Of a DNA stretch of 64,000 nucleotides, positions 8,895 through 60,159 are shown in pieces. Every line of letters begins with the position of its first letter. Position 1 is the first letter of the stretch. Below the pieces are notes generated by a model, which had not been told where the DNA came from, did not search any database, and saw nothing but the letters and a program-made list of their open reading frames with translations. The position numbers and the translations under genes are program-made. This DNA is from Cymodocea nodosa (lineage: Eukaryota; Streptophyta; Magnoliopsida; Alismatales; Cymodoceaceae): positions 4,045,001 through 4,109,000 of the forward strand of contig CM072340.1 in NCBI GenBank assembly GCA_036874045.1. Reading direction: 5' to 3'.

Positions 8895-8906
8895 GCTCTG
8901 ATACCA
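8895..8906 (-). other. Primer-binding site, S4 (initiator Met-tRNA)
   Basis: Perfect TGGTATCAGAGC on the minus strand, 2 bases inside the LTR end (CCTACA), as in most plant Ty1/copia elements. Confidence 0.92.
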
Positions 8907-21082: not shown

Positions 21083-21094
21083 GCCCTGATACCA
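21083..21094 (-). other. Primer-binding site, S3
   Basis: The minus strand reads TGGTATCAGGGC, one mismatch from the Met-tRNA site TGGTATCAGAGC, 2 bases inside the LTR end. Confidence 0.88.
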
Positions 21095-31453: not shown

Positions 31454-32606
31454 CTACAAACAGAGAAAACTAATTTACGGAATTTAAAACATTTCTCCTT
31501 GTTTGAGATCTTTCTTCTTCTCTTTTTTCTTCTTCAGTAATTCTTTAGTGACGAATATCTTGTCTTTCTTTGCTTCACCGAATTTGCTTTCTTTTGATAC
31601 TTCAAATCTTCAGCAACATAAATCTGACATTTTCTGCTTCACTGAATTTTCTTCCACTTGAGTGATTTTCCCTGAGAAGGTGTTTTTGATCCCTAAAAAA
31701 GATTTTTCTTTTGGTGTGTAGGGATGGTTTGATCAACGAGAACTCTATGCCTTTTATATTGTATCTTCATTTCATACATATCCTCCACATTTAACCACTA
31801 CCAGTTTTCCACTTCTCCACGTCTTTTCTTTTTCCTTCATCGAAACACACACGTTCCAACCCACGTTTATATTTCGAATTTCCTTTAATCATTAGTCTTG
31901 GATCTCTGAAAAATTTCCTGCAAAATAAACTTTCTCGTCCAAAAATTTTTCATCAGTGTAATAAGAAGCTGTTACTTTAATGTTAACTAAACGAGTAACA
32001 CAAGTATATATATATATAACTTAACGTTTCTAACTTAAAGAGTTCACCATGTGCCATTACATGTGACAAGTATTGTAGCTAACTCAAGGAACTAAATCTG
32101 TGGTGTTATGCTATCTCAACGAACCATCTCTGTTGTGTTATGATAACTCAACGAACCAGCTTAACCTTTCTTTCAGAAGGTTAAACGATAACTCACTGAA
32201 AACAGTTTAAGTTTCGGATAGATACAAATGTAAGTCACCGAAAAACTCTTTATATGATAAAACTAGTGAGACACGTGTCAAGACCTGAAAACATCACTTA
32301 AGTTACCTTTCGGATAGTTACGATTGTAAGTCTCCGAAAAATCTTTAACTCACTAATTCAGTAATAAACAAATGTTTTTATAATAAGAATTTTACCACGT
32401 GCAAAAATAACAACTTAAGTTTATAATGCTAACCTAACGCGTTGCCTTAGTGTTCAATATAGCAACTCAACGTGTTTAGTTATGTTAACTTAACGAGTTA
32501 AACATGTGCACCTCATGTGATACAATACAACATTCGTAACTTATAATTGACCTTGTGTATAACACTAACTTAACGAGTTCGTCTCTTCTTTTACTCACTA
32601 ACTTAA
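31454..32606 (-). repeat. S1 5' LTR remnant, right up to the S2 insertion
   Basis: It matches 28134 onward of the S1 3' LTR. The last 220 or so bases of the LTR (sense) and all of gag-pol are deleted. It ends at CTTAA (32602-32606), the S2 target site. Confidence 0.9.
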
Positions 32607-34266
32607 TGTTGAGTATTTTTGTTTTGATGATGTGTGTTGAATGAAAATAATCATATTTACTCAATTACTATTGCTTGTGAAAAGAAATTAAAATCATCAA
32701 TTAATACAGAAAAAGCTTACTGATATAAATACTTGTCTATAATGGATCTAAAGTTAATAACTAGTCGTTTCGTTGCATTAATTTCTCATTTAGCTAAACG
32801 TTAAGTTAACGTGTGGTTTTATTGAAAAGCATGATATGTCTTAAAGTTATATCTTCTATATCATGAATAGTGCACGTTTAGACAACTCGTTAAGTTAGAG
32901 TTTTGTTTGTATAGAGGTCACGTGAGAACTCGTTAAGTTAGAGGCTTAAAGGTTAAAATAGGTCATGTGATAACTCGTTAAGTTAGTGAGTAAAAGAAGA
33001 GACGAAGTCGTTAAGTTAGTGTTATACACGTGGTGAAATTATAAGTTATGAATGTTGTATTGTATCACGTGAGGTGCACATGTTTAACTTGTTAAGTTAA
33101 CATAACAAAACGCGTTGAGTTGCTATATTGAACACTAAGGCAACGCGTTAGGTTAGCGTTATAAACTTAAGTTGTTATTTTTGCACGTGGTAAAATTCTT
33201 ATTATAAAAACATTTGTTTATTACTGATTCGGTGAGTTATCGTTTAACCTTCCGAAAGAAAGGTTAAGCTAGTTCGTTGAGTTATCATAACACAACAGAT
33301 ATGGTTCGTTGAGTTATCATAACACAACGGATATGGTTCGTTGAGATAGCATAACATCATGGACTTAGTTTGTTGAGTTAGCTATAGTACTTGTCACGTG
33401 AAATGGCACATGGTGAACTCGTTAAGTTAGAAACGTTAAGTTATATATATATACTTGTGTTACTTGTTTAGTTAACATTAAAGTAACAACTTCTTATTAC
33501 ACTGATGGAAAACTTTTGGATGAGAAAGTTTATTTTGTAGGAAATTTTTTCAGAGATCCAAGACTGATGATTAAAGGAAATTCAAAATATAAACGTGGGT
33601 TGGAACGTGTGTGTTTTGATGAAGGAAAAAGAAAAGACGTGGAGAAGTGGAAAACTGGTAGTGATTAAACGTGGAGGATATGCATGAAATGAAGATACAG
33701 TATAAAAGGCATAGAGTTCTCGTTGATCAAACCATCTTTGCACACAAAAAGAAAAATCTTTTCAAGGATCAAACCATCCCTACACACCAAAAGAAAAATC
33801 TTTTTTAGGGATCAAAAACACCTTCTCGAGGAAAATCTCTCAAGTGGAAGAAAATTCAGTGAAGCAGAAAAGGTCAGATTTATGTTGCTGAAGAGTTGAA
33901 GTATGAAAAGAAAGCAAATTCGGTGAAGCAGAGGAAGACAAGATATTCGTCACTGAAGAATTACTAAAGAAGAAAAAGAAGAAGAAGAAAGATCTCAAAT
34001 AGGTAGAAAAGTTTTAAATTCTGCAAATTAGTTTTCTCTGTTTGTAATTATGAAATTGTTTAGATGATATATGGTATCGAAATATAATTGCATCTACAAT
34101 TTCTAAGGAGAATTGATTTGTATATTGTAATTGAAACCTTGAATAAAAATGATTTTATGAAAACACTGTCTTGACTTGTTTTTGAGTTTTAAAGTTTCAA
34201 TTATAATTCAGAAAATATTAAAAATACACAATTCACCCCCCTCTTGTGTAGCCATACGATCCTACA
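32607..34266 (+). repeat. S2 5' LTR (1660 bp)
   Basis: From TGTTGAGTATT to CGATCCTACA. U3 carries five CACGTG boxes (32919, 33027, 33066, 33184, 33395), many AACTCGTTAAGTT palindromes, and a TATA box at 33701. It lacks the 28845-29030-type unit present in S1 LTRs. Confidence 0.93.
33701..33708 (+). promoter_or_regulatory. TATA box of the S2 5' LTR promoter
   Basis: TATAAAAG lies after the palindrome/G-box array and about 560 bases before the LTR end. It is conserved as TATAAAAG at 42739 and on the minus strand at 28429-28437. Transcription of the element would start roughly 30 bases downstream. Confidence 0.7.
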
Positions 34267-34268
34267 AG

Positions 34269-34280
34269 TGATATTAGAGC
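34269..34280 (+). other. Primer-binding site, S2 (two changes)
   Basis: TGATATTAGAGC, two changes from TGGTATCAGAGC, 2 bases after the LTR end. Both are transitions. Confidence 0.85.
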
Positions 34281-34466
34281 TTTGTTAATAATCTTTGATA
34301 TAAAATCGATACCAACTTATTTAATATCATTGTTTATTCTACCTTCCTTGTTTTCAAACAGAAATTAATATCTGAGCATACGTTTAACTTTCTTGATTTA
34401 AGGCTCAAGTTGTTTTAAAGCTTTTAGACTGTTTAAAATCAAATAGGTTGAAAAATCTAAGGTAAG

Positions 34467-36690
34467 ATGGCTATTGGAAATGGTAATTTTTCTTTATATG
34501 AAGGAAAAAATCTTAATCGTCCTCCTTTATTTGATGGAATACATTTTGAATATTGGAAATATAGGATGACTGTTTTTCTTCAAAGTATAGATCATAAATT
34601 GTGGTTCATGATTTCTAAACCATATACTCCGTTAACTACTCCTTATAATACTTGGACAATTACTGAAAAAGAAAATGAAACTCTAAATGCTAAGGGCTTA
34701 AATATTTTATTTTGTGCATTGAGTTATGAACAGTTCAGTAAAGTGTCGACACATAAATCTGCTTATGAGGTGTGGCATGCATTAGAAGTTTCACATGAAG
34801 GTACTTCTCAAGTTAAAGAGACAAAAATAAACATGTTGATTCATAAGTATGAACTCTTTAAGATGCATGAAGACGAAAATATTTCTGAGATGTTTTCCAG
34901 ATTTCTTGATATCATAAACTCTTTAAAATGTTTAGGAAAGAATTTTGAATAGAAGGATTTGGTGAGGAAAATTCTCAGAATGGTCTCAGAAAGTAACATC
35001 AATTAAGGAATCACGAGATTTAAATGTTTATACTATGATTGAACTTGTAGGAAATTTAACAGCTTATGAAGTTCAATTAAATGAATCACTAAGTCACAAC
35101 AGACTAAAAATGAAGAAAGAAATAGCCTTCGAAAATAATTCAGATTCTGATATATCTACTAATTCTGACGAGGATTTGATTTTGCTGACTAGGAAATTCA
35201 AGAAAGCATGGAAAGCTAGGAAACAGCAAAGGAACAAAAATGAGAAACCCTCAACGTCAAAATCACTGAATGACAAGAATTCTTCATCCAGAAAGTATGT
35301 ATGTTACAACTGTAAGAAACCTGGACATTTTTCTCCAGATTGTCCTATGAGGAAAAATGAAAAGCAAAGTAGGACAAATCAGAAGAAGACAGCTTAGAAA
35401 ACTCAGAAAAAGTTTTACAAGAAAAAGGCTTTGAATGTCATTTGGGATGACACGTCTGAAGTGTCTGAATCTGAGGAATCAGCATCAAAATCTTCACATT
35501 CAGAAGGAGAACAAGAGTTAGAAGACGTTGCTCATGTGTACTTCATGGCAGATGAGTCTGAGGTAATATCTGATCCTGAAAGTCATTCAGATTTCAACTT
35601 TGATGAATTATTATGTGCTTATCATGCATTATTACAAAAATTTAAAGTATGTAAACTGGAAAATAAGAATATTAGAAAATCTTCATCCATTATGGAAGAA
35701 GAAAATTGTTTCCTGTCTACTACTTTAGAAAAGTTTAAATGTGATAATGAAAATCATGCTAGAGATTTGCAAAAATTTAGATTTAATGAATGTATCTTGC
35801 ATGAACAAATACAGAATATAAATGATGAAAAATTAAAGATAGAATTTGAAAATAAAATGTTGAGAAACAATGTAAATGAACTTGAATTAGAGATAGATAA
35901 GTTAAAATTGAGAGAGCAAGATTTAAATTCTACCATTGAGAAATGGAATTTAAGTCAAATTAAGTTAGACAAACTGACTAGTACCCCTACGGTGTCTTAT
36001 AAATTTGGCTTAGGATTTGATTATCCTGAATATCCTGAATCTCAAGCCAATAAAGGATTTATTAGTTGCAGTTCAAGTAAATCTAAGACTAAAATTCCTT
36101 TTATTATGAAATAAGGTAATAAATATGTAGAAATAGGTACTTTAAGGGATGTATCATGCAGTAATAATATAAATCAATGTGATTTGTCAAATTGTACTTC
36201 TAACATGACTATAAATGTTTCTAAAAATCTTGTTTCATGTTCTGGAAATTTAGTTTCTAATGTTTCTAAAATTTCAGACAATTGTAGTAAATTGAAAATT
36301 CAAAAACCTGAGCATGTAATTCAATACACTGGTATTAGACCAATTACTCATTCTGCATGTGATAAAACTAAAAATTCTTGTGCAGAAAAAGATTTTGTAT
36401 GTATAGAAAATGTTAATACAAGTACAAAATCTTGGTATGAACTTACTGAAATGTATAAGCATGACCAAAAGAAATTAACATCTGATAAAAATCTGTTTGG
36501 CCTTGATTATACTACATCTGAAAACAAAAAGAATGATTGTAAAAGCAATAATGCTATATGTGAGTATGAAGATAATGATAAATCAATAGTACTTACAACT
36601 AATAAGAATATAAATGATAATGTTAAACTATTTTTAAACAAAAAGAAGAAATATGCGTTTAATGAACTTGGTCCTCAACAACATTAGGTA
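34467..36690 (+). pseudogene. S2 gag, long sirevirus-like form
   Basis: ATG at 34467: MAIGNGNFSLYEGKNLNRPP, LFDGIHFEYWKYRM, AYEVWHALEVSHEGTSQVK, MFSRFLDIINSLKCLGKNF, then an intact CCHC knuckle CYNCKKPGHFSPDC near codon 290. After this comes an acidic region (SESEESASKSSHSEGEQE) and a long coiled-coil-like segment (NNVNELELEIDKLKLREQ). TAG at about 34950, a small deletion at about 34980, TAG at 35395-35397 and TAA at about 36112 break the frame. Three of these fall where S3 has Gln or open codons. The last piece ends with YAFNELGPQQH at 36687. Gag would form the particle and bind RNA through the knuckle. Confidence 0.88.
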
Positions 36691-36714
36691 CCAAGAAAAA
36701 GTTTTTCTAAATTT

Positions 36715-37341
36715 GTGTTGCAGGAGGAAACAACATCAAAATGGATCTTGGACAGTGGAGCGTCAAGTCACATGACCGAACAAAAAAGTCTATTACAAAA
36801 TTTTACAAATACCATGAAAGGAAGTGTAACATTTGGTAACAAAAGTAAAGATAAAATCATAGGTATGGGCAATGTTCAAATAACTCCTACTTGTGTTATT
36901 TCGAATGTACTATATGTAGAAAACCTAGGATTTAATTTGCTGAGTGTCATAAAAGATAAAGGTATATTTTTAAATCAGGAAAAATATGCAAATGAAATGC
37001 TTAAGAAATTTAATTTTAATGATACAAGGATTCGAGGAACTCCAATGAGTACTACTTTAAAGTTAGATATTGATGACATAGGAAAATCTATAGATCAAAG
37101 AAAATACAGAAGTATGATTAGTTCTTTACTTTATTTGACTACTAGTAGACCTGATATTATGTTTGCTGTGTGTGTTTGTGCTAGATTTCAATCTAATCCT
37201 AAAGAATCACACTTAATTGCAGTTAAAAGAATATTTAGATATATACAAGGAACTAAAAATTTCGAACTATATTATTCTATGGATAGTTCAATAGATCTTA
37301 TAGGATATACTAATGCTGATTATGCAGGATCTAAATCTTAG
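36715..37341 (+). pseudogene. S2 protease fused in frame to the RT C-terminus
   Basis: A single open frame of 208 codons. The first part is the copia protease ([47 protein letters not shown]). It switches at about 36952 to the C-terminal part of a copia [61 protein letters not shown] and [13 protein letters not shown]3 shows that about 3 kb (rest of protease, integrase, RT with YVDD) is missing at the join. RNase H is also absent after SKS at 37341. The deletion happens to preserve the frame. It is unlikely to make a useful enzyme. Confidence 0.88.
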
Positions 37342-37479: not shown

Positions 37480-38436
37480 TTATTGTAAAATCATAGTAGT
37501 ATCTTATTGATTTTAAGTAGTTTATCAATTTTAATGGTTTTTACGATTTTAAGTGGAAATGTAAATGAAAAACATTAAATACGTCTGACATTCTGAAATT
37601 TTGATTAAATGTTTTCTTTGAATCAAGGAAAATGCATATGATCATGCATAAATTTGACTTAATTGATTAAACTTGTAGAATAAGTTATATGTCACTCATC
37701 TTAAACTGTTAATCAGAAGTATAAGCTTATTGAAACTGATTCATATTCTCAATACAATCATAGAAGTAAAAATTGTATGAGATTTGTGTTTTTATTGCAT
37801 CTATATTAATGGAATACATATATACTGTGCTTAAAATGAAAAGTGCTTACATAGTGAAAATGTTTGAGAGTTTATTGATCAGTTTGATCACGAGCCTTTT
37901 GTACTTGAGCAGATAGGTATGTAAGGATTGCTGTCCTGAAAAAGGATTCTTTAAATCTGGCAACCTAAGGTCCTGATCAGATCTAGGATTGTTGACTGAA
38001 AGCTCATTACACAGGTACATTAGAAAGCTCTTGTATGATTCAAGCTTTTCAAACTAACTTTTAAAGAAAATTATCAATATTTACTGTTTTGAAAAGAAAA
38101 GGTTGTTTCATTAATTACAGATATCTTTGAATCGCATATAGTTTCTACCAATATGACTACTGATTTATTGAATCAACATTAGTACTTTTGAAAACGTTTA
38201 TTTGAGATACATTCTTTTATTCTCCTTGAATTAATCACATTGAGTTCAAAGTTGTGTTTTGATTCATATACAGTAGGAATTGATTCTGGAAATCATTTTT
38301 GATGATCTCAGGATAATAGAAGTTTCTGAAAAGAAAATTTAAAAGTACAGTTATACTTAACATCTATTGTCACTACAAGTATATTTTGTATGTTGATTGA
38401 ATATATTTGAAGTATATTTGTAGGGGGAGCATTAAC
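37480..38436 (+). repeat. Noncoding module shared with the gypsy-type A elements
   Basis: About 0.95 kb with no ORF between RT and the extra ORF. Its reverse complement matches 51570-52490 and 60160-61085 over its whole length. The strongest block is 37864-38040, for example GAGAGTTTATTGA, TTTGTACTTGAGCAGATA, TTTAAATCTGGCAACCTAAG and GATCTAGGATTGTTGACT. It ends with a purine run GTAGGGGGAGC at 38426-38436. 37342-37479 and 38437-38939 hold nothing recognisable. Confidence 0.8.
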
Positions 38437-38939
38437 AATGTCGAAAATAGATTAATATAATTTAGAATACAAATCTTAGTTAATCTGAATTAATGTCCTC
38501 TTAAAATCTTGATGAACTAATTTGAAATGACAAATAAACTATTTTAGATTCAAAAGACAAAATGTTCAAATAGTTTACAATGTTCTCAAGATAATGTTAA
38601 GTTTAGCATGTGTGTTGTTTTCGGAACGTTTCAGTTGGAAGCATCCGAAGATTGTTTAAATGTACTAACTAGACATTATGTTAGATAAGGTAACGTGTAA
38701 AACTGCCTCTAGACAGCATTTTACTCGTTAGGTTAGTTAACTCAACGAGTTATACTTGAATATTTCGGGTACTTTGATTGAATAAACTTTATTCAATATT
38801 TATTTAATTTCTAAGCCCAACTTCGCTTCACATTGAGTTATACGTCTAAAAACCCTATTTAAACGCTTATTACACGGGCACTTAGGTTATTTGTAAACTT
38901 TGTCAAGAAAATCTTTCTCGCTTGTTGCTATTACAACCT

Positions 38940-41182
38940 GCGATGATGGTCTCCAAGTTCTACAAAGGTCGTGGCAGAGGAAAAGTCAAAAGCAGAAGAG
39001 ATGCAAAAGGAAAAGAAATAGAGAATGATGAAGTTCCACGTACTTGGTTCAAGAAAATACTTCGAGTGGATAGAAGGTTAGCTGAAATTTATAAAGATTA
39101 CTTCTTTCCTGAAGGTATACTAAAATAAGTTAGACAAGAACTCCAAAATATTGATGCTAGTATTACATACATGGGTATTTGAAGTAAATTTGATAGAGAA
39201 TACAGAATGAAATCTGTTGAGATTGCATTTTTGGAATAGTATGCAAAATATTTGGAAAAAGGTGTAGGTTTATCAAATAGAACTCCTCAAACTCCTATAA
39301 ACTGTACAAGACTACATGCATTTGAGGAAGAGCATAAATCAGCTATCCCTACTCCTTTATATTCAAAACAAGTAAAATCAAATATTGTTGTAGACAAAAC
39401 AAAAGTTGACAGTCTTCGAAAGGCCGTTGCAATAGAAAGTGCCTTAGAAGAATTAAAGCAAAAAACTTTTATGGAGCAATTTGGCAAGAAAACAGCAATA
39501 CTTGAAAAGGAGAAACAAAAATGTTATACAAGAAGGAAAGTCAGAAAAATTATGTCTAAGGAAACAAAGTCTATTGAAAAAGGAAAATCAAATGAAAATT
39601 TATTTCCAAAGGACAATGTATGTCTAGACATTGTACCTTATTGTGCATCTGATAAACTCATCAGTTCTGAGCACACTGAAACTGATGAAGATAATGAGAC
39701 TTTATTTTCCTTGCTAGAAAGCTTGAGAAGAAATACAAGTCAAATATGAGCTCAAGTTTTTCTATTAGTACAAGTCCTGATGATGTAGATATTGACAAAT
39801 TAGAGCATCAGGCACCTAACATTGAACAAGTTATTGCAGATATAATTGACAATGTTGAAGCATTAACTAGTTCACAAGCTGAATTGTCTAGAGTAGTAGA
39901 TATTGAAAATGTTAAGACTCTAGAAGAGCTAAAAGTTAACCAACCTTCTACGGAATCTATAGAAGTAGAGTTTGAGAATTCACAACATGAATCAATGGAA
40001 TTATCTATTGAACAAAATGAACAATTACAGACAAATACACCGGCTGTAGAATTTGTGGTAAAATTGAACTCTGAACATTCTATAGAGACTGAAAAGATGA
40101 ATGTTGAGAATATTGACAATGTTCCTAACACTGTTGAAGCTGAAGAATCAAGCTTACCTGAGTAGCTTCAAGATAATATTTTGGAAGAGGAACAACATGA
40201 CATTCATTTTGAAAAAGAGGTTCCTGAAGATGAATTAAACTCTGAATCATGACTTCAGGTATCACCTTCTTTGTGTACAATATTACAAATTCAAGGTAAT
40301 TCAATTCATTTTAGATTTGAAGAAGCATTGCAAAAATACAATAATCCGATTACATGTCAGATTCTGCATGCTCGTCCAATAAAGTTCAAAAATTTGATGG
40401 ACATAAGAGACTTATTTGAGTTTCAAGGCCTCATTAAATTCTTGCTAGTAGGAACGAAATGGAAGCAATACACAGAGCTTATTGCATCTTTTTATAGCAA
40501 TCTGGTTAAGAATGGAAATTTTCTAAAAACTCAAATAAATGAACAGGAGTTTCTATTGTCTCCTAAGTTAATTTTTGAAGTTTTAGGATTAAAGAATGAA
40601 GGTGTTGTTGTTACCAACAGATTTGACATAATAAGACAATTGGAATGGAACATTCAGTCTTTATCAAAAATTTCAGATGTATATTCTGAAATGAGATTAA
40701 TGGAAAATCTGAATGCAGAGGCAAGGTTTATTGCAAATATATTGCATGCAAATTTATTTCAGAGAGTTGGACACAATTTGGAAGTCAGCAGAAGCTATTT
40801 ATATGCAACTTATGGCCTACTGAATAGAATTCAAATAAATTGGTTTGATGTATTTATGTCTCAACTATAGCATATGAGTTCAAAGTTATTTTATGGTGAT
40901 GCTATATGTAGAATCATTGCAAGCCAATTGACTTTATCTGACTAGCCCTTTGAAACTAAAGGCATGAGAGCATTTAGTGTCAAAGATTTGCAAAAATTAC
41001 AAGCCATGTATAAACCTCAACGACAACAACAACAACAACAAAGTTATTCAGTTCAAGCAAAACAGCAAACCCAGCTACCTCCTGACTTAGATGTAGTGCT
41101 TAACGACATCAGAAATGATATTAGGCATCTAGGAGATAAAATATGTAATGCTATAAGTGATATACTTAGGAGGGGTCGATAA
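38940..41182 (+). pseudogene. S2 extra 3' ORF ('env-like' position; plant transposon-protein-like domain)
   Basis: The reading from 38942 starts with MMVSKFYKGRGRGKVKSRRD, a basic N-terminus, then an acidic/low-complexity part (39746-40165, rich in Glu, Ser, Asn). The conserved domain follows (40271-40870): LMDIRDLFEFQGLIKFLLVG, FYSNLVKNGNFLKTQINEQE, LIFEVLGLKNEGVVVTNRF, ARFIANILHANLFQRVGHNL and LLNRIQINWFDVFMSQL. A poly-Gln run and LPPDLDVVLNDIRNDIRHLG end it at 41182. Stops at about 39126, 39179, 39237, 40163, 40250, 40868 and 40943 break it. The domain resembles the Pfam 'putative plant transposon protein' family; function unknown. No transmembrane or signal segment supports an envelope role. 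A related copy lies in element A. Confidence 0.72.
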
Positions 41183-41677
41183 CTGTTTTTGTTTGTTTCT
41201 GAATACAAAATGTAATGTTTGTATTACTTGTTTGGTTCATTGAACAATACATTTTTCTATAAATGTGTTCAATTATTATTCTTGTTTACAGAAATTGTTG
41301 TTGTAATTCTCTTATATATGTATATATATTCTCTGTAATTATCTTTTTGATTAATGACAAAAAGGGGGAGAAATATTATAAAAAGATGATTATGATCTTA
41401 ATTGCATATATATATTATAAAAGGAGATGCTATTGAATGGTTATTGTAATCTGACAGAAGATAATTAGAAAACTGATACTTATATAATTATTGACATCTG
41501 AGAGTTTTAGTTCTGAGAGGTAAAATTTACACAAACAATAGAAATAAGCTTAAGTGAACTTAAGTCAACAAACAAGTTTGTTGAATTAAAAGTTAACCCA
41601 ACGAAGGTGCTTTGTTGAGTTATACATATTTCATAATTGATTTAATATGGTTTTGTCATCATCAAAAAGGGGGAGAT
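41183..41677 (+). promoter_or_regulatory. 3' noncoding region with duplicated polypurine tract
   Basis: The tract used for plus-strand priming is AAAAAGGGGGAGAT (41664-41677), directly before the 3' LTR. An almost identical AAAAAGGGGGAGAA lies about 305 bases upstream (41359-41372). Sireviruses are known to carry multiple polypurine tracts. The region is otherwise noncoding. Confidence 0.85.
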
Positions 41678-43304
41678 TGTTGAGTATTTTTGTTTTGATG
41701 ATGTGTGCTAAATGAAAATAATCATATTTGCTCAATTACTATTGCTTGTGAAAAGAAATTAAAATCATCAATTAATATAGAAAAAGCTTACTGATATAAA
41801 TACTTGTCTGTATTGGATTTGAAGTTAATAACTAGTCGTTTCATTGCATTAATTTCTCATTTAGCTAAACGTTAAGTTAACGTGTGGTTTTATTGATAAG
41901 CATGATATGTTTTAAAGTTATATCTTCTGTATCAAGAACAATGCACGTTTAGACAACTCGTTAAGTTAGAGTTTTGTTTGTATAGAGGTCACGTGAGAAC
42001 TCGTTAAGTTAGAGGCTTAAAGGTTAAAATAGGTCACGTGATAACTCGTTAAGTTAGTGAGTAAAAGAAGAGACGAAGTCGTTAAGTTAGTGTTATACAT
42101 GTGGTGAAATTATAAGTTACAAATGTTATATTGTATCACGTGAGGTGCACATGTTTAACTCGTTAAGTTAACATAACTAAACGTGTTGAGTTGCTATATT
42201 GAACACTAAGGCAACGTGTTAGGTTAGTGTTATAAACTTAAGTTGTTATTTTTGCACGTGGTAAAATTCTTATTATAAAAATATTTGTTTATTACTGATT
42301 CGATGAGTTATCGTTTAACCTTTCGAAAGAAAGGTTAAGCTGGTTCATTGAGTTATCATAACACAACGGAGATGGTTCGTTGAGATAGCATAACACCACG
42401 GACTTAGTTCTTTGAGTTAGCTACAGTACTTGTCATGTGAAATGGCACATGGTGAACTCGTTAAGTTAGAAACGTTAAGTTATATATATATACTTTCATT
42501 ACTCGTTTAGTTAACATTAAAGTAACGACTTCTTATTACATTGATGAAAAAGTTTTGGATGAGAAAGTTTATTTTGTAGGAAATTTTTCAGAGATCCAAG
42601 ATTGATGATTAAAAGAAATTCAAAATATAAACGTGAGTTGGAACGTGTGTGTTTCGATGAAGGAAAAAGAAAAGACGTGGAGAAGTGGAAAACTGGTAGT
42701 GATTAAACATGGAGGATATGCATGAAATGAAGATACAGTATAAAAGGCATAGAGTTCTCGTTGATCAAACCATCCTTGCACACAAAAAGAAAAATCTTTT
42801 CTAGGATCAAACCATCCTTGCACACCAAAAGAAAAATCTTTTTCAGGGATCAAAAACACCTTCTCGGGGAAAATCTCTCAAGTGGAAGAAAATTTAGTAA
42901 AGCAGAAAAGGTTAGATTTATGTCGCTGAAGAGTTGAAGTATCAAAAGAAAGCAAATTCGGTGAAGTAGAGAAAGACAAGATATTCGTCACTAAAGAATT
43001 GCTGAAAAAGAAAAAGAAGAAGAAGAAATATCTCAAACAGAGAGAAAAGTTTTAAATTCCGCAAATTAGTTTTCTCTATTTGTAGTTATGAAATTGTTTA
43101 GATGATACATGGTATCGAAATATAATTGCATCTACAATTTCTGAGGAGAATTGAATTGCATATTGTAATTGAAACCTTGAATAAAAATGATTTTATGAAA
43201 ACACTATCTCGACTTATTTTTGAGTTTTAAAGTTTCAATTATATTTCAGAAAATATTAAAAATACATAATTCACCCCCCTCTTGTGTAGCCATACGATCC
43301 TACA
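41678..43304 (+). repeat. S2 3' LTR (1627 bp)
   Basis: From TGTTGAGTATT to CGATCCTACA, the same family and orientation as 32607-34266, with small indels. TATA box at 42739-42746. Right flank CTTAA. Confidence 0.93.
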
Positions 43305-43676
43305 CTTAACAAGTTATCACGTGACCTATTTTAACCTTTAAGTCTCTAACTTAACGAGTTCTCACGTGACCTCTATACAAACAAAACTCTAACTTAACAA
43401 GTTGTCTAAACGTGCACTGTTCATGATACAAAACATATAACTTTAAAACATATCATGTTTTTCAATAAAACCACACGTTAACTTAACGTTTAGCTAAATG
43501 AGAAATTAATGCAACAAAATGACTAGTTATTAACTTCAGATCCAATACAGACAAGTATTTATATCAGTAAGCTTTTGCTGTATTGATGATTTTAATTTCT
43601 TTTCACAAGCAATAGTAATTGAGCAAATATGATTATTTTCATTCAACACACATCATCAAAACAAAAATACTCAACA
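43305..43676 (-). repeat. S1 5' LTR, outer 372 bp
   Basis: It begins with the duplicated CTTAA and continues the S1 LTR to its start TGTTGAGTATTTTTG (minus, 43676). It matches 29280-29653. Confidence 0.92.
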
Positions 43677-47224: not shown

Positions 47225-47554
47225 GTTTTCAAAACAACAAACAACCAGCAATACACACGAGATACAATGTGATTTCAACAAACACAATTCTGCGGCAAGG
47301 TACACAATAGCAAGCAATATCTCAACAACAATATGCTACTTAAACTACTGATTTCAAAGAAATGCAATCAGCCACAGGCCAAGCACACTACTTAGCACAA
47401 AATAGTAGCAAATACTCACACAAACCAAGCACAAAACCACAATCACAAAATGCCCAAAATCCGACAATCAAAGAGTCACTCGTCCAGAAAACTGTTGTGC
47501 CCTAGCCAGACGCCTCCTGCTGTATCTCTCTGAATACGAAAATTTTGACCACGA

Positions 47555-47943
47555 AATTTTAAAGGAAAGAAGTTCAGGAAGCTTACTACACGTCCTCAAA
47601 ATTTGAGATGCAACAGAGCATGGACGAGGAAGGCACACGACTTGACGTCAGAGTGTGCAGACTAGCACCGACGACGACAACAGTTGCGGCAATGGGGGAT
47701 ATCCTTGCGGAAATGGCTTGAACCTTGATCAATCTCTTCAAAATTTTAAAGTAAGGAATTTCAGGAAGCTTACTACACGTCCTCAAAATTTGAGACGCAA
47801 CGGAGCACGGACGACGAAGGCGCACAACTTGGCGTTGGAGTGTGCAGATTGGTGCCGGCGATGACAGCAGTTACAACAATGGAGAGATCCCTTGCAGAAA
47901 TGGCTTGAACCTTGATGAAACTCTTCGAAACTTCAGATGCAAA
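47555..47943 (-). repeat. 187-bp tandem duplication in the N1 leader
   Basis: The sequence from about 47555 is repeated from about 47742, with both copies starting AAATTTTAAAG and containing TCAGGAAGCTTACTACACG and GAAATGGCTTGAACCTTGAT. The copies differ at many positions. It lies between the primer site and gag. ORFs on either strand here are duplicated chance frames. Confidence 0.85.
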
Positions 47944-49452: not shown

Positions 49453-49468
49453 CTTGCATTAATAAATT

Positions 49469-51396
49469 CTCTTAGAGGTAAACAAACAACTTTTCACACA
49501 AATTAGATGTTAAATCCAATTTGTATTTTAACTGCAAGTGCATAGTGTATATTGTATTTGTGTGAAATTACTAGTCGATCTCATAGAGATTAAGAATTGT
49601 GTACTATTTTGATTTTTATATTGGAGTTTATATGTATTTAGTTAAGCACTCCGTTGAGTTATAGTTAACACAACGGACTTAGTTCGTAGAGTTATAGTTA
49701 ACTCAACGGACTAACCTAGTGGATTTAAGTTAACTCCACGAGTCTATCTTTCCAGTTAAATACTATTATTTATAGAGGAATTCAGCCAACCATTAGGCAG
49801 TTCTATAGAATGTAAATAACATCAATTAATCTCTTTAATGCTAGTTAATATTAGATTTTTCATTAAGCAACAACAACATTCAGATATTTCAAATAGTAAC
49901 CATTAAAATCTTTAAGTATCTAGGATGATTCAATTTCAGAAAATTATAAAACTATTTTCTATTTTTTGAATCAAACAAACATAAAACATTTACAATACTA
50001 ATAATGATAATATTAATCACGATACAAAGCAAACAATACAACACTTTAATACTAAATGTAAACACATATAATTTGTTGTTTTTGGTATTTTTGTTTTGAT
50101 ATGTTCTTGAAGTTGAGCGAAAGGTGAAATGTAAAAATCTCTACCGATAGTAAAAACTTCTGTCACTACATGCGACACGATTATACCATTGAAAACTTAA
50201 TCACTTACAATCTTGCCTCCCATCCCTATAGAATCGCGAATTAAGAATTGTAAGATGATCTCCTCTTCAGCATACTAGCATCAATCTGAAACCAATGCTA
50301 GAAGCTTTATGATCTCTTGAGATATGAGTTGGTGCTTGGTGAAAGTGGCTTCCCTTCCTACGACGCGATCACTCCTCACAATGGTTGTCAGTCACTGTGT
50401 TTGGTTGGGAATCGACCCGACATCTGGAAAATATCCTCACAAACCTCTGATGGTTGGTGATTTTGGTGGTGGTGTGGAGCTTCAAGGAACTTCTGACACT
50501 TCCTACAATTAGCACAGTTCTCCACCTACACACACACACTTTTTCATCTTTCTCCTCTTCTTTTAAATTTCTTTTAGTAATAACTGCTTCTACTTAAATG
50601 ATCGGTTGGATTTCCTTCATTCATATCAACGATGGTGATTTCTTCTTCATTCCATGAGTGAATTCCTACGTGATACGTGTAATTGTAGTTTTCCTTCGAA
50701 TTTCTTATTTCTACAACTGATATAGTCGCATATTAGAAAATAAATGGTCCGTGGAGTTAGTGTAACTCAACGAACTTACTTTGTTGATTTAACTATAAAA
50801 CACGTGCAATAAAAAAATAACTTATAAGCTTATAACACTAACACAACGCGTTACCTTAATGTATGTTCAAGTAACTCAATGCGTATAGTTATGATAACTT
50901 AACAAGTTATACATGTGTAGCTCACATGACATAATAAAGCATTTGAATTCAACATGTGCATAATTCTAACTTAATGAGTTTAGAAATTTCGGATACTTAC
51001 AAACCTAACTATCCGATGCTTAGATGCATTTCAGATAGTTAACAAATAACTTACCGAACATTTACTTAAGTCATGCATTTAGGTTACAACATGTGTACTC
51101 TAGGAAATAATAAAATATTCTTTAAGCGTTTAAAACATAACTATCCGATACATGAAATATAACTCTCTGAAATAACAGAAAATTTGGATACTTAAGAATT
51201 AAAAAGCCTATAATTCAACGACAGTTTAGAAATGTACTTAATTAACGTTAATTTTCTAAAATTATGCAGATTCTTTCATTAAAGCATATAACAGTGCAAT
51301 TATAACATAATGGCGTAATTCTCATATGATAAGCTAAATATTATGCAATTAACCATCATTTAACCGTAAATATTATGCACTTTTTCATTCTAAACA
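49469..51396 (-). repeat. LTR-A, 3' copy of element A (about 1928 bp)
   Basis: Sense is minus, from TGTTTAGAATG (51396) to the degraded end near CTTAGAGG (49469). 50790-50985 resembles the S-type LTR U3 (AACGCGTTACCTTA, TAACTTAACAAGTTA). One CGGATA-type unit remains at about 50986-51110. Confidence 0.85.
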
Positions 51397-51435
51397 TTTC
51401 CCCCATACTTAAATTTTTGCTAGTCCCTTAGCAAA
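51397..51435 (-). promoter_or_regulatory. Polypurine tract plus hairpin (element A)
   Basis: The minus strand reads AAGTATGGGGGAAA directly before the LTR start. Beside it is a perfect inverted repeat TTTGCTA-gtccct-TAGCAAA (51416-51435). The same pair occurs at 59975-60012 and, with other stem bases, at 14627-14664. Confidence 0.8.
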
Positions 51436-51569: not shown

Positions 51570-52490
51570 TCATCTTCATCCTACAAATATATTTAAAACA
51601 TATGTAACTTAACTACAAAATATATTAGCATCACATAGGTGGTAATTATATTATCATTTTTTTCTTAAACATTTGCCATCCTGAATTTTCCAATATGATT
51701 TCCAGAATAAATTTCAACTACATACGAATCAAAACACAATCCAACTCAATATGATTAAAACAAGAAGAATAATGAATTGTATCTCAGATAAACAACTTCA
51801 AAAGTCTAATCTAGATTCATACTTTAGTAATCTTAGATAATAGAAAATATACTCGATTCAAAAGATATCTGTATTTCACAAAACACTTTTATCTTTTTAG
51901 AATAGTATATGCATATTTGTACTTTAAAAGTTACTTTGAAAAGCTTGAATCATACAAGAGCTTTCTAGTGTACTCATGTATCGAGCTTTTAGTCAACAAT
52001 CCTAGATCTGATTAGGATCTTAGGTTGCCAGATTTAAAGAGTCCTTTTTCAAGTCAATAATCCTTACATACTTATCTGCTCAAGTACAAAATGCTTGTGA
52101 TCAAACAAGTCAATAAACTCTCAAAGTTTTTTTTTTTTTTTTTTTCTTTCAACACATTATATATACGTATTTCATTAATACAGATGTAGTAAAACACAAA
52201 TCTCATATAATCCTGCTTCTATAATTTACTGAAAACATGAATCCATATCAATAAGCTCATACTTTTTCTATAGTTTAATAAGATTTACACATAAATCATT
52301 CTACAAGTTTAATCAATCAAATTAAATGTATCCTTGATCATATGTATTTCATTTAATCCAAAAATCAACCTTTCAGCTTTTTCAGGATTTCAGATCTTTT
52401 ACTGAGTTTCAGTTAAGTATTCTGAATTCTTTTAAAATCGTGAAACTATTAAACTCATAAAATTCAGCAAAAACATAAGATACTATACCT
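51570..52490 (-). repeat. Shared noncoding module (element A copy)
   Basis: Reverse complement of the S2 region 37480-38430; sense orientation is the same in both elements. A run of about 20 T lies at 52127-52146. It sits between the two polypurine-tract/hairpin units. No ORF. Confidence 0.8.
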
Positions 52491-53185: not shown

Positions 53186-54324
53186 TTAAGAACATGATTG
53201 AAAAGTTGTGTCAAATGGAATAAATGTGTCAGTCCAAGCAAACTTTTTAGGCATAATTCTTCTTGCTATAAATTCTGTTTTAATGAAGTCTGCTCTCTTT
53301 TTTAACTTGTAAACTTGCAGTATGTTATCAATACTAATATAAGTGTATTACCATTAATAAATTGAAATGTAGAAAGGGATCCTTTTTTGTTCTAAGATAA
53401 TGTAGTTGTTTCTATTTCTACAGATATTTCAATATATTCCTTTTCCCATTTCCATTCATTTAGGTCTTTCATAATCCATATTTGAAATTTCATAAGTTCA
53501 TCCCGCCATCTTATTAGACATAAAGTAGGATCATCATATTCAGTATACCACATTCCTAATTGAATTTTATCATGTTCCGTAAATGGTGGCTCAACTATCT
53601 CATTAGGTATAGGCAATATTTCTATAAAGTTATCATTATAACTGTTTATGCTTACTATGTATAAATCTGATCTAAATGCAACTAATATATCTGTGACTAG
53701 ATATATATATCCATCAAGTATGACATGTATGTTGTTAATTAACATTTTCTGTCTTAGATATATCATAGTATTTTCAGTCCAAGATCTATTTAGAAAATTA
53801 TACACACTTAAATATAAATCTTCATCCCAATTTCCAATTGGTCTCTAGTAATACAATTTTTCAGGAATGGTCAAATTTTTATCAGAAAATGTTAATGCTG
53901 ACCCACAATTTTTAGTTGGTACTTCAAATCTATTAGGCCTTCCTATATTCCATTCTTCTCTACTGATAGGATTTCTAATCAAAATATCGAGAAACAGAAT
54001 TGCATACCTTGGTTTGGTTTTGTAAATAATTAATCCTTCATCTATCCCCATAATATGATCTATTCCTTTTAATGTATTGGGTGGAATTCCAGTAGTTTCT
54101 TCCATATTCAGATATTCATAGCTGATTGAATTACAATTAAATGACTTCCACAAAAATCCATCTCTAATATTAGTCATTTTTGCAGCCTGTAGTCCATGAA
54201 AATATTTTCCTCTCACACATTCTTTAATTTCCTTTGACACACAACACAATCTGCATAGATCTTTAGCTGATAGGTTACTTAGTACTTCCCTTAGTGCATT
54301 TAGTGGTAATTTCATCAATTCCAT
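53186..54324 (-). pseudogene. Captured F-box/FBA gene (element A)
   Basis: Intronless plant F-box protein gene, about 380 codons, in sense orientation inside the retroelement. The N-terminus is an F-box: MKLPLNALREVLSNLSAKDL, CRLCCVSKEIKECVR (about residues 4-38), which would bind SKP1 in an SCF ubiquitin ligase. The rest matches the F-box-associated (FBA) pattern: DLYLSVYNFLNRSW, ILDGYIYLVTD, LYIVSINSYNDNFIEILPIP and FQIWIMKDLNEWKWEKEYIE. In-frame stops occur at 53845-53847 (a Trp codon in A') and 53392-53394, and a 1-base deletion near 53340 shifts the tail. No introns or poly-A remnant are seen. The host gene of origin is not recognisable. Identity as F-box/FBA is confident; activity is lost. 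Confidence 0.82.
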
Positions 54325-54539
54325 CTGTTGTGATTCTGTATAAACAAAATTTAGCAGAGATGAATTAACATAGCTACTTACTTACCCTCATGGAGTTAGG
54401 TCATAACTCAATGAACTAAGTTCGTTGAGTCAAGTAATAACTCTACGATACTACTAACTACAATTAAACTTACCATTTTTCTTTTTATATTTTTCTACTT
54501 ACAATATTATACATAGTTGTTTCAGTTATACTACTTCAT

Positions 54540-55800
54540 TTGGCTTCCCTCCCAAAGGAGGTATCAATTTCATTAATAGTTCTATTGACAAGGTTAGGCA
54601 CTACTTGCATTGGCAATCCTCTAGTAGGTCTAACTTCTATTGATTCCTTCTATCTAAGGGGTATATTTCTATTCATATTATGATTCTAAATGGCAGCATT
54701 TCCAAATACAAGATCTAGACGATTGTTTAATTATTGAATTATCTTTTCTAACTTCTTTATTCTAGATCCTTGTTCAATTAATGCTTCATAACTTATATTA
54801 TTGTCATTTATATTTTCTCCTCCTAGGAAATTGTTATTTCTCCAAGATAAGTTTGGGTGATTTCTCCAATTAGGGTTATAAGAATTTCCAAAGTTATCTT
54901 TTTGGTTTCTAGCATAAATAATATCTAAGTCGTTAATATTTGCATTCTTTTCTGCTAGTTTTTGATTAATGATAACTCTTCTATTTTTTTTGTTAACTCA
55001 GTTAATTTAACTTCAAGCATAGTGCTTGAATCTATTTCATGCATTCCTTTTGGCAATATTCTTTTATCTGTAATAGCTTTAGCTGAGTTTTTCCACTGTG
55101 CAATTCTTTTTGTAAAGTTTTTTAGGTATGCCCATGCTTCTTCACTACACAGTTTTAAAAATCTACTGACACGTAGATTCTAATAAAGATTTAGTTGAAA
55201 CATCTATGCCTTCATAAATTATACCTATTAATTATGCTTTACTCATTGCATGATGTGGACATTAAGTTAGTAAATCTTTAAATCTTTCAAATATATTTCC
55301 AGAATGATTCTCCTTGTTTTTGGCTACACATTAATATTTGTTTTTTCTTTTTAATCATTTGATGTGTTGGATAATATTTTTCTAGAAAAATAGAGCAAAA
55401 TTCAGTTCATGCAGAAATTGAATCAGGCGACAAAGTATATAACCATCTCTTAGCTGTGTCTTTTAAAGTAAAAGGAATATGTCTAAGTTTAATAGCATCA
55501 ATACTCATGTTCAACATTTTCATCATTTGACAAACTTCGTTAAATTCTCTAAGGAAATAATAGGCATCTTCTCTTTCTAATCCATGAAAGTGTGGCAATT
55601 GACTAATATAATTAGATTTCAATTCAAACCTATCTCCCTCAAAGTTTGGCAATCGAATACATGAAGGTTCATCAACTAATTTAGGATACAGAATTTTCCC
55701 TAATGGTTTTTCTACTGGAGTAGTCATATCTTTGTTCTTTTTTAAAGAAAGGTTAGCTACACCCTTAAGGATTTCGTTAAAGTCCAATTTAGAAAATATT
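54540..55800 (-). pseudogene. Athila-like gag of element A
   Basis: The ATG at 55787 begins MDFNEILKGVANLSLKKNKD. The open part (55787-55407) contains CIRLPNFEGDRFELKSNYIS, EDAYYFLREFNEVCQMMK and IPFTLKDTAKRWLYTL, the gypsy capsid core. Further on, in pieces with stops, come NQKDNFGNSYNPNWRNHPNL, SWRNNN, a short coiled segment (RIKKLEKIIQ) and RPTRGLPMQVVPNL, the Athila gag C-terminal landmarks. No zinc knuckle was seen before the frame ends at about 54540, and no protease follows; the F-box gene begins 216 bases on. Gag in cis would allow packaging only if pol came from elsewhere. Confidence 0.82.
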
Positions 55801-55858
55801 TTAAAGAAAGGTTAGTTACACCCTAAGGATTTCGTTAAAGTCCAATTTAGAAAATATT
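55741..55858 (-). repeat. 59-bp tandem duplication over the gag start
   Basis: TTTAAAGAAAGGTTAG...AGAAAATATT occurs at 55741-55800 and again at 55800-55858, with a few changes. Each copy contains the codons for LKGVANLS of gag; the outer copy is out of frame. Confidence 0.88.
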
Positions 55859-57015: not shown

Positions 57016-57760
57016 CTAGAGCTTTTCTAATTGTTGTTCTAATTGATTTATATGTTCAACAGCTCCTATAATGTCTCTAGAAGGTCCAGCTATCTCAACA
57101 ACTACAGCATTATAATTTTTATACTCCTTCATTGAAATGGCTCTAGATTTTATCCTCTTGGATGTCCATTTCGTGAAGTCAATACTGTCCACCATCAACA
57201 GTGGAATCAGATCTCCATAAAATAATTTTTTTCTGTGTTGCTCTCAACTTAGAGCTAAAAACTAAAGACTAGTTTACTTTAATCTTATTTACAACTGCAT
57301 ATGTGACTTCTTTAACAAACTGACTTAATTCTATATCATGGCCTTGTCATTGGTAAACATTTTTAATCAAAATGTTAGCTACCATGTGTGCTTTACCATT
57401 TAAGTACTTCAATCTGTTTAATAGTGGCACACCAAGATTGATAGCTAAACAGTCTTTAATTTCCTATTCTGTCCACTCGACTATAGTTGTATTTTCCAGG
57501 ATTTCTAATCCTTCATTTTTCAATCCAAAAATGCTATGGAGAAGCTCTAGTGTTATCTATACAATAGCTTGCTCCACGCTAGCAATTAAACTTCCTTCTT
57601 CCTCTCTTAAATTGGCATAAAAGTAGGGCACTAAACTTTCATATATTGCATGACCTCTCTATTAAGAAATAAATTGCAGTAGACCTTGGAACTCAAATAA
57701 TTCTTTAATGTCATTCATGCCATCTGTTTGGTTGTGAAAGGTTAAATTAGAAAACTGGTT
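57016..57760 (-). pseudogene. Plant transposon-protein-like ORF in the element A leader
   Basis: Decayed ORF directly inside the 5' LTR. The minus-strand reading gives MNDIKELFEFQGLLQFIS, then VPYFYANLREEEGSLIASVE, LELLHSIFGLKNEGLEILEN, a damaged middle, and at 57198-57016 the open end piece (SIDFTKWTSKRIKSRAISMK, VEHINQLEQQLEKL). It aligns in order with the S2 extra ORF (RDLFEFQGLIKFL, FYSNLVKNG, IFEVLGLKNEG, CRIIASQ...MRAFSVKD), but the position is different: before gag here, after pol in S2. TAA/TAG stops and frameshifts are numerous. Function unknown; the plus-strand ORF 57372-57620 is only its shadow. Confidence 0.68.
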
Positions 57761-57791
57761 GAATTTGTTTTTATGCTTATATCAATAATGA

Positions 57792-59974
57792 CTTTTAGAA
57801 GTAAACGAACAACCTTTCACACAAATTAGATATTAAGTCCAATTTGTATTTTAACTGCAAGTGCACAGTGTATATTGTATTTGTGTGCAAGTACAGGTCG
57901 ATCCCATAAAGATTGAGTAAGAATTGTGTACTGTTTCTATTTTTATATTGGAGTTTATGTGTTCAATTAAGCACTCTATTGAGTTACAATTAACACAATG
58001 GACCTAGTTTGTGGAGTTATGGTTAACTCAACGGACTAACCTCGTGGACTTAAGTTAACTCCACGAGCCTGTCTTTTCAATTAAATACTATTATTTACAA
58101 AGGAATTCGGCCAACCATTGGGCAGCTCCACAGATTGTAAATAACATCAATTAAGCTCTTTAATGCTAGTTAACATTAGATTTACCATTAAGCAACACTA
58201 ACATTCAGATATTTCAAATAGTAACCATTAAAATCTTTAAGTATCTAGAACTAATTAATTTCAATAAATAGTACAACGATTTTATATTTTCTGAATCAAA
58301 CAAACGTAAAACATTCACAATACTAACAATGATAACATTAATCATGATACAAAACAAACGATACAACACTTTAATACTAAATGTAAACACAGATAATTTG
58401 TTGTTTTTGGTATTTTTGTTTTGATATGTTCCTGAAGATGAATGAAAGGTGAAATGCAAAAATCTCTATCGACAGTAAAAACTTCTGTTACTACATGCGA
58501 TGCGATTACACCATTGAAAATTTAATCACTTACAATCTTGCCTCCTCTCCCTATAGAATCATGAATCAAGAATTGTAAGTTGATCTCCTCTTCAACTTAC
58601 TAGCATCAACCTGAAACCAAAGCTAGAAGCTTTATGATCTCCTGAGATATGAGTCGATACTTGGTGAAAATGGCTTCTCTTCCCACGACGCGATCACTCC
58701 TCACAATGGTTGTTAGACATTGTGTTTGACTCGGAATCGACTCGACATCAGGAAAGTATCCTCACAGACCTTTGATGGTTGGTGATTTTGGTGGTGGTGT
58801 GGAGCTTCAAGGAACTTCCGACGTTTCCTATAGTTAGCACGGTTCTCCACCTCTACACACACACTTTCTTCGTCTTTTATCTCTTCTTTTATATTTCTTT
58901 CAGTAATAACCACTTTTGCTTAAATGATCGGTTGAATTTCCTTCATTCATATCAACGATGGTGATTTCTTCTTCATTCCACAAGTGAATTCCTACGTGAT
59001 ACGTGCAATCGTGGTTTTCCTTCGAATTTCCTGTTTCTGTAACTACTATAGTGGCATATTAGAAAATAAATGGTCCGTGGAGTTACAGATAACTCAACAG
59101 ACTTACTTCATTGATTTAACTATAAAACACATGCAATAAAGAAATAACATATAAGCTTACTAACCTAATGTGTTACCTTAGTGTATATTCAAGTAACTCA
59201 ACGCATATAGTTATACTAACTTAACGAGTTATACATTTGTAGTTCACGTGACATAATAAAGCATTTAAATTCAACACGTGCATAAATCTAACTTAACGAG
59301 TTCAGATATATAACGTACGGTTTTTACTCAATAACTCAATGAGTTCTCACATGATCTTTTTATACCTTTAAACTTGTAACTCAATGAGTTGACACATGAT
59401 CTTTCAACAAAAGGAACACTAACTAAACGAGTTGTTACTGTGTACTGTACATGATATAAATATATGCAAATAAAATGGATCATGCTTAATATTATAAAAC
59501 CACACTTAAATCAGGTTTTCAGATCACAACACATGTCCTAAATAAGTTGTATAAATAAAAGGATATTTTAGATACTTACAAATCTAACTATCTGATGCTT
59601 AGATGCATTTTGGATAGTTAATAGATAACTTATCGAAAATTTACTTAAGTTATGCATTATGGTTTCAACACGTGTACTCTAAGAAATAATAAAATATTCT
59701 TTAAGCACTTAAAACATAACTGTCTAGTATATGCAATATAACTCTCTAAAATAACAAAAAATTTGGATACTTAGGAATTTAAAACCTGCAACTTATCGAT
59801 AGTTCAGAAATGTACTTAATTTATGCTAATTCCTTGAAATTATATAGATTCCTTCATTAAAGCATATAACAGTGCAATTATAACATAATGGCTTAATTCT
59901 CATATGATAAGTTAAATATTATGCAATTAACCATCATTTAATCGTTAATATTATGCACTTTTTCATTCTAAATA
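57792..59974 (-). repeat. LTR-A shared by elements A and A' (about 2183 bp)
   Basis: Sense is minus, from a degraded start (TATTTAGAATG, 59974) to about 57792 at the TTTTAGAAG block. TATA box (minus TATAAAAG) at 58886-58893. U3 contains 59125-59515, which matches S-type LTR U3 (29070-29470) in order and orientation, and a CGGATA-type unit at 59560-59710. It serves as 5' LTR of A and 3' LTR of A'. Confidence 0.88.
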
Positions 59975-60159
59975 CTTTCCCCATACTTAAATTTTGCTAG
60001 TCCCTTAGCAAACTAAGATTTAACTAGTTGGTCTTTCTAAAGTTGCTAGAATTAATTTTTGATTTTGTTTCTTCAGAATACATAAATTAGATTACTATAT
60101 AGATATTCTGTATTTTTCAGCAATCTATTTTAACATTATTTTCTTCTCTTCAACCTGTA

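Follow-up and report, generated by a model that had tools for sequence, protein, structure and literature searches.

In a 64-kb stretch of the Cymodocea nodosa genome (contig CM072340.1, positions 4,045,001–4,109,000; 'the window', numbered here from its first letter), two long terminal repeat (LTR) retrotransposons of different superfamilies – a Sirevirus of the Ty1/copia superfamily, which we call S2, and an Athila-type element of the Ty3/gypsy superfamily, which we call A – have in common an apparently noncoding module of about 0.93 kb that was, with very high probability, truly exchanged between the two kinds of element. Sirevirus and Athila are element types known from plants. A 204-nt core of the module changes far more slowly than its surroundings and is likely to be under selection.

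An apparently noncoding module common to a Sirevirus and an Athila-type element

The window, with a G+C content of 32%, consists of LTR retrotransposons nested in one another. Aligned with the minus strand of A (52485–51494), S2 37497–38507 is 74.8% identical over 1032 columns (E 2e-170); the module of a second Athila copy in the window, B (61066–60159), is 75.4% identical to that of S2, and a reversed, non-complemented control of the module comparison gave no match. A preliminary description of this DNA had claimed some 0.9 kb of noncoding sequence common to S2 and A in the same sense. The alignment bears this out, as it does the limits proposed there (38430 in S2, 51570 in A), near which identity drops to background. 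The features concerned, including the polypurine tract (PPT) and open reading frames (ORFs), are:

37497–38430, plus strand: module in S2, between pol and the ORFs; no sense ORF; same place in loci L002–L008.
51570–52485, minus strand: module in A, from pairwise identity and family context.
60142–61066, minus strand: module in B (core at 60499–60705), from pairwise identity.
10354–10564, minus strand: 5' fragment of an Athila-type module, cut at 10353 by a Sirevirus LTR; 86% identical to A 52482–52267; upper limit sharp.
38422–38429, plus strand: AGGGGGAG, the Sirevirus PPT octamer, at the end of Sirevirus/Athila identity.

The octamer stands at the module end in seven of the eight S2-type copies (L001–L008, the window copy counted; L007 lacks it), and a purine-rich stretch lies at the same point in 7/9 Athila loci examined, the other two not matching the search word. 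An older Sirevirus order of module, PPT and LTR, with the ORF arriving later, would fit the octamer at the module end.

The module has one place in each family and many copies

We searched the 374.6-Mb assembly (28 contigs), each search giving scores for its best 40 candidates only. The best 40 of 4,259 candidates for the S2 module were all 97–100% identical and the best 40 of 6,380 for the A module 91–100%; searching with the module, a check of the kind that the preliminary description had suggested, thus finds it in high copy number in both families. The loci cut out for comparison are those with the highest scores and do not sample the copies at random. Sequence from 37339 to about 39930 is unbroken in all seven other Sirevirus loci, and the module runs into the LTR in 25 of the 29 other Athila loci, the remaining four (L014, L019, L020 and L021) stopping or changing between module and LTR. 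The Athila module sits about 91 bp before the PPT and LTR, and the PPT ahead of the LTR is similar in most Athila loci. Three Sirevirus copies carry integrase/reverse transcriptase (RT), module and a PF20167-like ORF in that order, read as separate stretches.

A second subfamily on each side extends the picture. In the C-type Athila subfamily (L053, L054) the module occupies the same place, with 78–79% identity in the stretch before the module and 82% in the module itself (the C-type LTR search scored the best 40 of 7,441 candidates; four were cut out, one of them the window). In a second Sirevirus subfamily, T (L057, L058), the module is 90–91% and the next flank 82–87% identical. The 374.6 Mb contain 3,624 matches to a 26-nt core signature that leaves three letters free, and none to its reversed form; among the first 100 places listed, 49 carry the Athila triplet and 35 the Sirevirus triplet, 12 are one C-to-T step from these triplets and four have something else.

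Judged by this placement, the module is an integral, high-copy part of the element in both superfamilies. Since two Athila and two Sirevirus subfamilies carry it, its exchange seems to predate the subfamily splits in both superfamilies. The preliminary description had itself raised the possibility that the module is a separate nested insertion; we looked at this and reject it, the module holding one fixed place per family (7/7 Sirevirus loci, 25/29 Athila loci and the second subfamilies).

Three further arrangements were seen. Core matches at G000:C1:5971227, 5978975 and 5986722 lie in one sense, 7748 and 7747 bases apart, and may belong to Athila-type elements arranged in tandem, comparable to the A/B pair of the window. 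At G000:C1:8997173–8998304, a C-type Athila LTR is preceded by a core signature in the same sense, 685 bases from the LTR start, which, from the coordinates only, would make it a third C-type copy with the module. Finally, L048:4115–7978 is a tandem array of ~1.8-kb units, each composed of part of a Sirevirus LTR together with a module-plus-linker piece in inverted orientation.

A slowly changing core

37861–38067, plus strand: core of the module in S2, slow change (counted over 37863–38066).
51921–52127, minus strand: core in A, slow change.

Sirevirus–Athila identity per alignment window is 85–91% over 37876–38035 and 46–83% elsewhere. For the counts, the core was taken as the 204 nt from 37863 to 38066 and the rest as the remainder of 37497–38430; only substitutions were counted, with positions settled per family. 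The alignment held 8 rows of the S2 family (S), 31 of the A family (A, copy B counted), two C-type (C) and two T rows, the C and T counts being rough at two rows each. L056, a T locus in which the core is missing, was left out; L055 has a C-type LTR lying within an A-type F-box and yielded no C-type module. Substitutions in core and rest, respectively, were:

S–A: 11/195 and 147/654.
A–C: 5/182 and 61/622 (p 0.0012).
S–C: 11/187 and 183/644.
S–T: 1/188 and 19/468 (p 0.021).
T–A: 10/183 and 89/419.
T–C: 10/173 and 113/422.

The core is thus 3.6–7.6 times slower than the rest in six comparisons (Fisher p 0.021 to 2e-12), which come from four subfamilies and are not independent of one another. 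The core was picked from the S–A profile, so that S–A is no independent test, and A–C and S–T are the fairer ones. With gaps counted, the A–C rest stands at 90/651, 29 of these differences falling in one insertion block. Within families the core is as variable as the rest (8 S rows, 16 of the 31 A rows); because it is not less variable there, its slow change between families points to selection on active copies and not to a mutation cold spot. A 21-nt core pattern had no match in the viral_contigs and genome_contigs collections, neither of which was made as a plant collection, so this says little about plants.

A U3 piece in the LTRs points to a second exchange

The element pair also has in common a piece of about 350 bp in the U3 part of the LTR, which the preliminary description had missed.

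32806–33156, plus strand: Sirevirus U3 piece with an array of the repeat AACTCRTTRAGTTA, also in A-type LTRs; 71% identical over 363 bp to 59509–59160.
50801–50980, minus strand: shortened Sirevirus U3 piece inside the 3' LTR of A; 74% identical over 189 bp to S2 33005–33189.

The repeat matches 46 times in the window against 0.31 expected. Relative to C and D LTRs and to L030, L032 and L033, the piece is an extra block in the A-type LTRs; it is present in 20 of the 30 loci L009–L038 (window copy counted), and of the ten without it three (L014, L019 and L021) have no LTR joined to the module. As the window Sirevirus LTRs compared share the piece and only some Athila LTRs do, it probably passed from Sirevirus to Athila. 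Arrays of AACTCRTTRAGTTA lie at 32806–33156, 41877–42228 and 59160–59509, with 5–6 copies per Sirevirus LTR and five in the middle Athila LTR, mostly 33–81 bp apart; one reversed copy is found at 38738, just after the S2 module.

What might keep the core

We propose that a cis element of ~0.93 kb came to be seated in the 3' half of an env-class Sirevirus family and of an Athila-type family through a single exchange between the superfamilies, which would have taken place long before the spread of the present copies. The most likely route would be copy-choice, with reverse transcription switching between the 3' ends of two element RNAs. The module may then have been retained in both superfamilies for a cis job of its 204-nt core. 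Gag, RT and integrase of Ty1/copia and Ty3/gypsy are unrelated, and for this reason the job would probably face the host rather than the element's own proteins; that module and ORF stand in different order in the two families likewise favours a host-facing cis element. The favoured job would be to govern nuclear export, stability or translation of the unspliced, full-length RNA, the kind of control exerted by the constitutive transport element (CTE) and the RNA transport element (RTE) in simple retroviruses.

Taken whole – an exchanged host-facing cis element, its core kept by selection, with an RNA-level job favoured – we give this reading a chance close to even. That the core works at the RNA level is a more tentative part of it, plausible but short of probable. 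In its fullest form, the proposal is of a portable cis-acting RNA element that crosses the Ty1/copia–Ty3/gypsy divide, enlists host factors for export or fate of unspliced RNA, is moved by RNA recombination and aids thousands of copies; this would be the first in plants as far as the literature search shows, and we consider it speculative and, as it stands, unlikely.

As for RNA structure, the folds derived from Sirevirus only and from Athila only both close at 37861–38067, with one two-sided change between S and A, and fold energy z is −2.8 for S2, −1.5 for A and −2.6 for B. Several observations weigh against an RNA-level role. Four tests of broken pairs gave P 0.155, 0.32, 0.012 and 0.885, and in three of them changes in the other families break about as many pairs as changes placed at random; a z of −2 is reached by 6 of 61 background windows, and a search found no Rfam family at gathering thresholds. 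Nor does the common sense orientation of the module in the two families argue for a function as RNA, because RNA recombination preserves orientation in any case. Moreover, an antisense frame over the core (start 38053, which is its end in window numbering) is open for at least 60 codons in 7/8 S, 21/31 A, 2/2 C and 1/2 T copies, and the constraint could lie on a small antisense protein instead of RNA. No tRNA-like or known RNA family was found.

The main rival to an RNA-level role is regulation at the DNA level: the core would be an enhancer, internal promoter, insulator or chromatin-targeting site, bound by a host protein that both kinds of element use. We regard this as rather unlikely. Enhancers too function in varied positions, the element pair also shares the U3 repeat-array piece, most easily read as host transcription factor sites, and an internal promoter has been proposed for Sirevirus ENV (PMC2829016). 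However, the module lies before the ORF in Sirevirus and after it in Athila, which disfavours a simple promoter of the ORF: the Athila module, close to the PPT and LTR, cannot be the promoter of that ORF. A constrained length of 204 nt would also be long for a few protein sites.

It is improbable that the core encodes a small antisense protein or exon of about 60–100 codons. The candidate frame is:

37850–38053, minus strand: putative antisense open stretch over the core, 68 codons, from an open-frame check; no known relative.

While its openness in most copies, and an extent near that of the core, speak for such a protein, 152 of 2,000 shuffles of one S core had an equally long open stretch in some frame (1,230/2,000 for copy L010), and third codon positions are not clearly favoured by the substitutions (S–A 5/10, S–C 6/10, T–A 3/9, A–C 2/5). 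The far end of the frame varies (37850, 37809, 37795), no start codon common to the families was found in the copies looked at, and searches with the frame gave nothing in Pfam up to E 1 and no relative among the sequences of the protein collection, the best PDB match having E 0.1. Coding on the sense strand was rejected, the core's sense frames being open for at most 41 codons.

Similarly improbable is a third mobile or host sequence of which the module is a piece and which entered both kinds of element independently. The sharp 5' limit of the copy ending at 10564, close to the S2/A limit, would suit such a source, but the S2/A limit itself is fuzzy, and inside Athila the flanks diverge in step with the module (78–79% before it, 82% within it). 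We also give little credence to the idea that Sirevirus and Athila copies repeatedly recombine or undergo gene conversion with each other and so homogenise a core that has no function. Exchange did apparently happen at least twice, for the module and for the U3 piece of 20/30 loci; yet conversion across superfamilies would not by itself slow the core between A and C or between S and T, and the families keep private core differences.

The extra ORF and the order of parts in Athila

40253–40870, plus strand: S2 extra ORF, PF20167-like, in env-like position; E 2e-4, below the gathering cut-off.
57103–57724, minus strand: A extra ORF remnant, PF20167-like and broken, a breakpoint near 57725 having removed its 5' end.

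The preliminary description had claimed an ORF with the same motifs in S2 and A. This stands: S2 40469–40867 and A 57643–57245 match at 30% identity across 133 aa (tblastx, combined E 8e-24), and FEFQGL, FY.NL and GLKNEG are present in both ORFs. The profile search that it had suggested gave a partial answer, as PF20167 was matched by S2 (40253–40867, E 2e-4, 21.7 bits against a gathering score of 45) and by one piece of the A-family ORF (E 0.01), both below cut-off, with no match for the other pieces. Across Sirevirus and Athila ORFs the longer protein matches have 24–32% identity; on these matches, we take the ORFs to be homologous. Their DNA matched over 31–32 bp in two of four comparisons and not at all in the other two. 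As the ORF shares almost no DNA identity and the module is 75% identical, module and ORF would have separate histories and did not, on this evidence, move together. In four comparisons, counts by codon position revealed no clear constraint on the S2 ORF. A single relative of 115 aa turned up for this ORF in the protein collection (93%, covering 47% of the query), and viral_contigs gave six stretches, none of them confirmed; neither collection was made for plants.

In Athila, the order appears to be pol, ORF, module and LTR, because the parts are so arranged in L041, one copy with an integrase end: the integrase end (3890–4222), which over 55 aa is 56% identical to the window's gypsy-type integrase, comes first, and after it a PF20167-like ORF (6459–7022), the pre-module stretch, module, PPT and LTR. 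This places the extra ORF between pol and the 3' LTR, a mark of Athila. The ORF precedes the module in L043 and L044 too, where integrase was not seen. In the window, the A ORF adjoins a short filler and then the middle LTR at 57725, and the preliminary description had given module–LTR–ORF as the order in A. A search with this region scored 40 of 4,718 candidates, one being the window itself; the other 39 (39/39) match only from query base 66–73, the sequence before the ORF being different. The LTR–ORF order in A would hence be a local breakpoint, as 39/39 other scored copies lack the junction, and it is not confirmed as a property of the A family. No tRNA-Asp primer-binding site (PBS) follows the middle LTR in a search of the window (sole match 5978–5995, in another element), and this LTR most plausibly belongs, as 3' LTR, to the neighbour B, which has its own module. 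It is, lastly, very improbable that one block of module and ORF, both common to S2 and A, was rearranged by template switching across an LTR, as the preliminary description had it, given the private junction and the lack of comparable DNA identity in the ORF.

Relation to known systems

SERV-K1 carries between env and the 3' LTR about 750 bp from another retrovirus, which acts as a CTE (PMC11379458). As in SERV-K1 and MER11 HML-2, a piece of similar size was gained from another element between an env-like gene and the PPT/3' LTR, and LTRs changed between sublineages (PMC11379458). The partners there are two related retrovirus groups and here copia and gypsy; the piece there is mostly donor LTR and here, in the Sirevirus, a linker module; and export was tested there and is inferred here. 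The proposed cis role in the export of unspliced RNA is also that of the intracisternal A-particle (IAP) RTE, the musD transport element (MTE; PMC12786077) and the Mason-Pfizer monkey virus (MPMV) CTE; unlike these, to which no sequence relation is expected, the module is known from sequence alone. Nuclear export of plant LTR retrotransposon RNA is described as not directly studied (PMC12786077).

Among plant elements, recombinant Athila lineages of Arabidopsis have gained gag, pol or env by recombination, most of them lacking pol (PMC2410132); exchange there was among Athila families, whereas here it is across superfamilies and outside the known genes. S2 has features of the noncoding motifs described for Sireviruses (PMC2829016), namely the AGGGGGAG-AT/TG junction, extra PPT copies and an LTR repeat array. 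Those motifs are short and described from Sireviruses, in contrast to the long module common to Athila, and the array here is not the CGG-CCG box. A heterogeneous 3' ORF has been surveyed in 74% of SIRE elements and Athila ORF-1 in 16% of Athila elements (PMC6317226), and PF20167 is reported in a sunflower Athila (PMC11728184), so that the common ORF family is less surprising than the common module. The recombination cases that we found in print stay, as described there, within one family or superfamily, and we recognised no printed report of Sirevirus–Athila module sharing, judged by titles and the beginnings of abstracts. New here are the slow change of the core, its 3,624 sites and the Sirevirus U3 piece in many Athila LTRs. 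If a selected core does exist in two superfamilies, both would rely on the same step, probably of the host, and the core would mark the sequence that serves it; the 204 nt are a defined candidate for the study of plant LTR retrotransposon RNA export.

The elements and other features of the window

32607–34266, plus strand: S2 5' LTR; TGTTGAG start, CTTAA duplication.
34461–35397, plus strand: S2 gag pieces (Retrotran_gag_2, zinc knuckle); PF14223 E 1e-18, PF00098 E 3e-7.
36688–37341, plus strand: S2 protease fused to the RT/RNase H end; the integrase/RT part of family copies L045, L047 and L049 is missing in S2.
39240–40252, plus strand: two overlapping S2 ORFs 5' of the PF20167-like ORF.
41668–41677, plus strand: S2 terminal PPT, AGGGGGAG plus AT, adjoining the 3' LTR (AT/TG junction).
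41678–43304, plus strand: S2 3' LTR, 93% identical to the 5' LTR.

From these features we class S2 as a pol-deleted Sirevirus. It is intact at both termini, with the target duplication CTTAA at 32602–32606 and 43305–43309; at a substitution rate of 1.3e-8, the LTR pair distance (Kimura two-parameter 0.053) would make the insertion about 2 million years old. Its gag is copia-type (PF14223). Copia-type pol of the family is seen in S1 (RVT_2 PF07727 E 2e-42, plus integrase), and S1 pol is 88–90% identical in three S2-type copies, S2 itself being deleted in that part. The Sirevirus PPT AGGGGGAG lies at 41668, with extra linker copies at 41363 and 38422, and a PBS of the initiator-tRNA-Met type follows the 5' LTR directly (34269–34280, two mismatches); related LTRs have this PBS with no (8895–8906) and one mismatch (21083–21094), a pattern weak by count alone (8 found, 3.05 expected).

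49460–51401, minus strand: A 3' LTR (limits approximate); TGTTTAGAATG start after a PPT of the form TATGGGGGAAA.
53395–54381, minus strand: F-box plus F-box-associated ORF inside A; PF00646 E 2e-10, PF07734 E 5e-3.
54500–55811, minus strand: A gag pieces; PF03732 E 1.4e-3 on 55290–55406; 49% identical to the gag piece 995–735.
57783–59977, minus strand: middle LTR (limits approximate), 3' LTR of the neighbouring element B; includes the U3 piece 59160–59509.
12109–14079, minus strand: C-type Athila LTR without the Sirevirus U3 piece.

A, in turn, we class as an Athila-type element. Its match to PF03732 covers a 39-aa piece (19.3 bits, cut-off 24.1), the larger piece 55410–55811 having none; A itself lacks pol, the gypsy-type pol of its family being represented by the integrase end of one copy (L041), and no 5' end belonging to A was recognised in the window. 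The gag-like piece 55811–54500 (minus strand) lies 3' of the ORF in A, and another, 995–735, 3' of pol; a break point at about 55443 in the former is seen again in L040 and L042. B, too, contains an F-box plus F-box-associated gene (about 62035–62542, minus strand). Since 21 of the 29 other module loci extend into the F-box gene, this captured gene has been amplified along with the Athila element. Elsewhere in the window, 47554–47933 is a direct repeat of ~190 bp in two adjacent copies with 84% identity.

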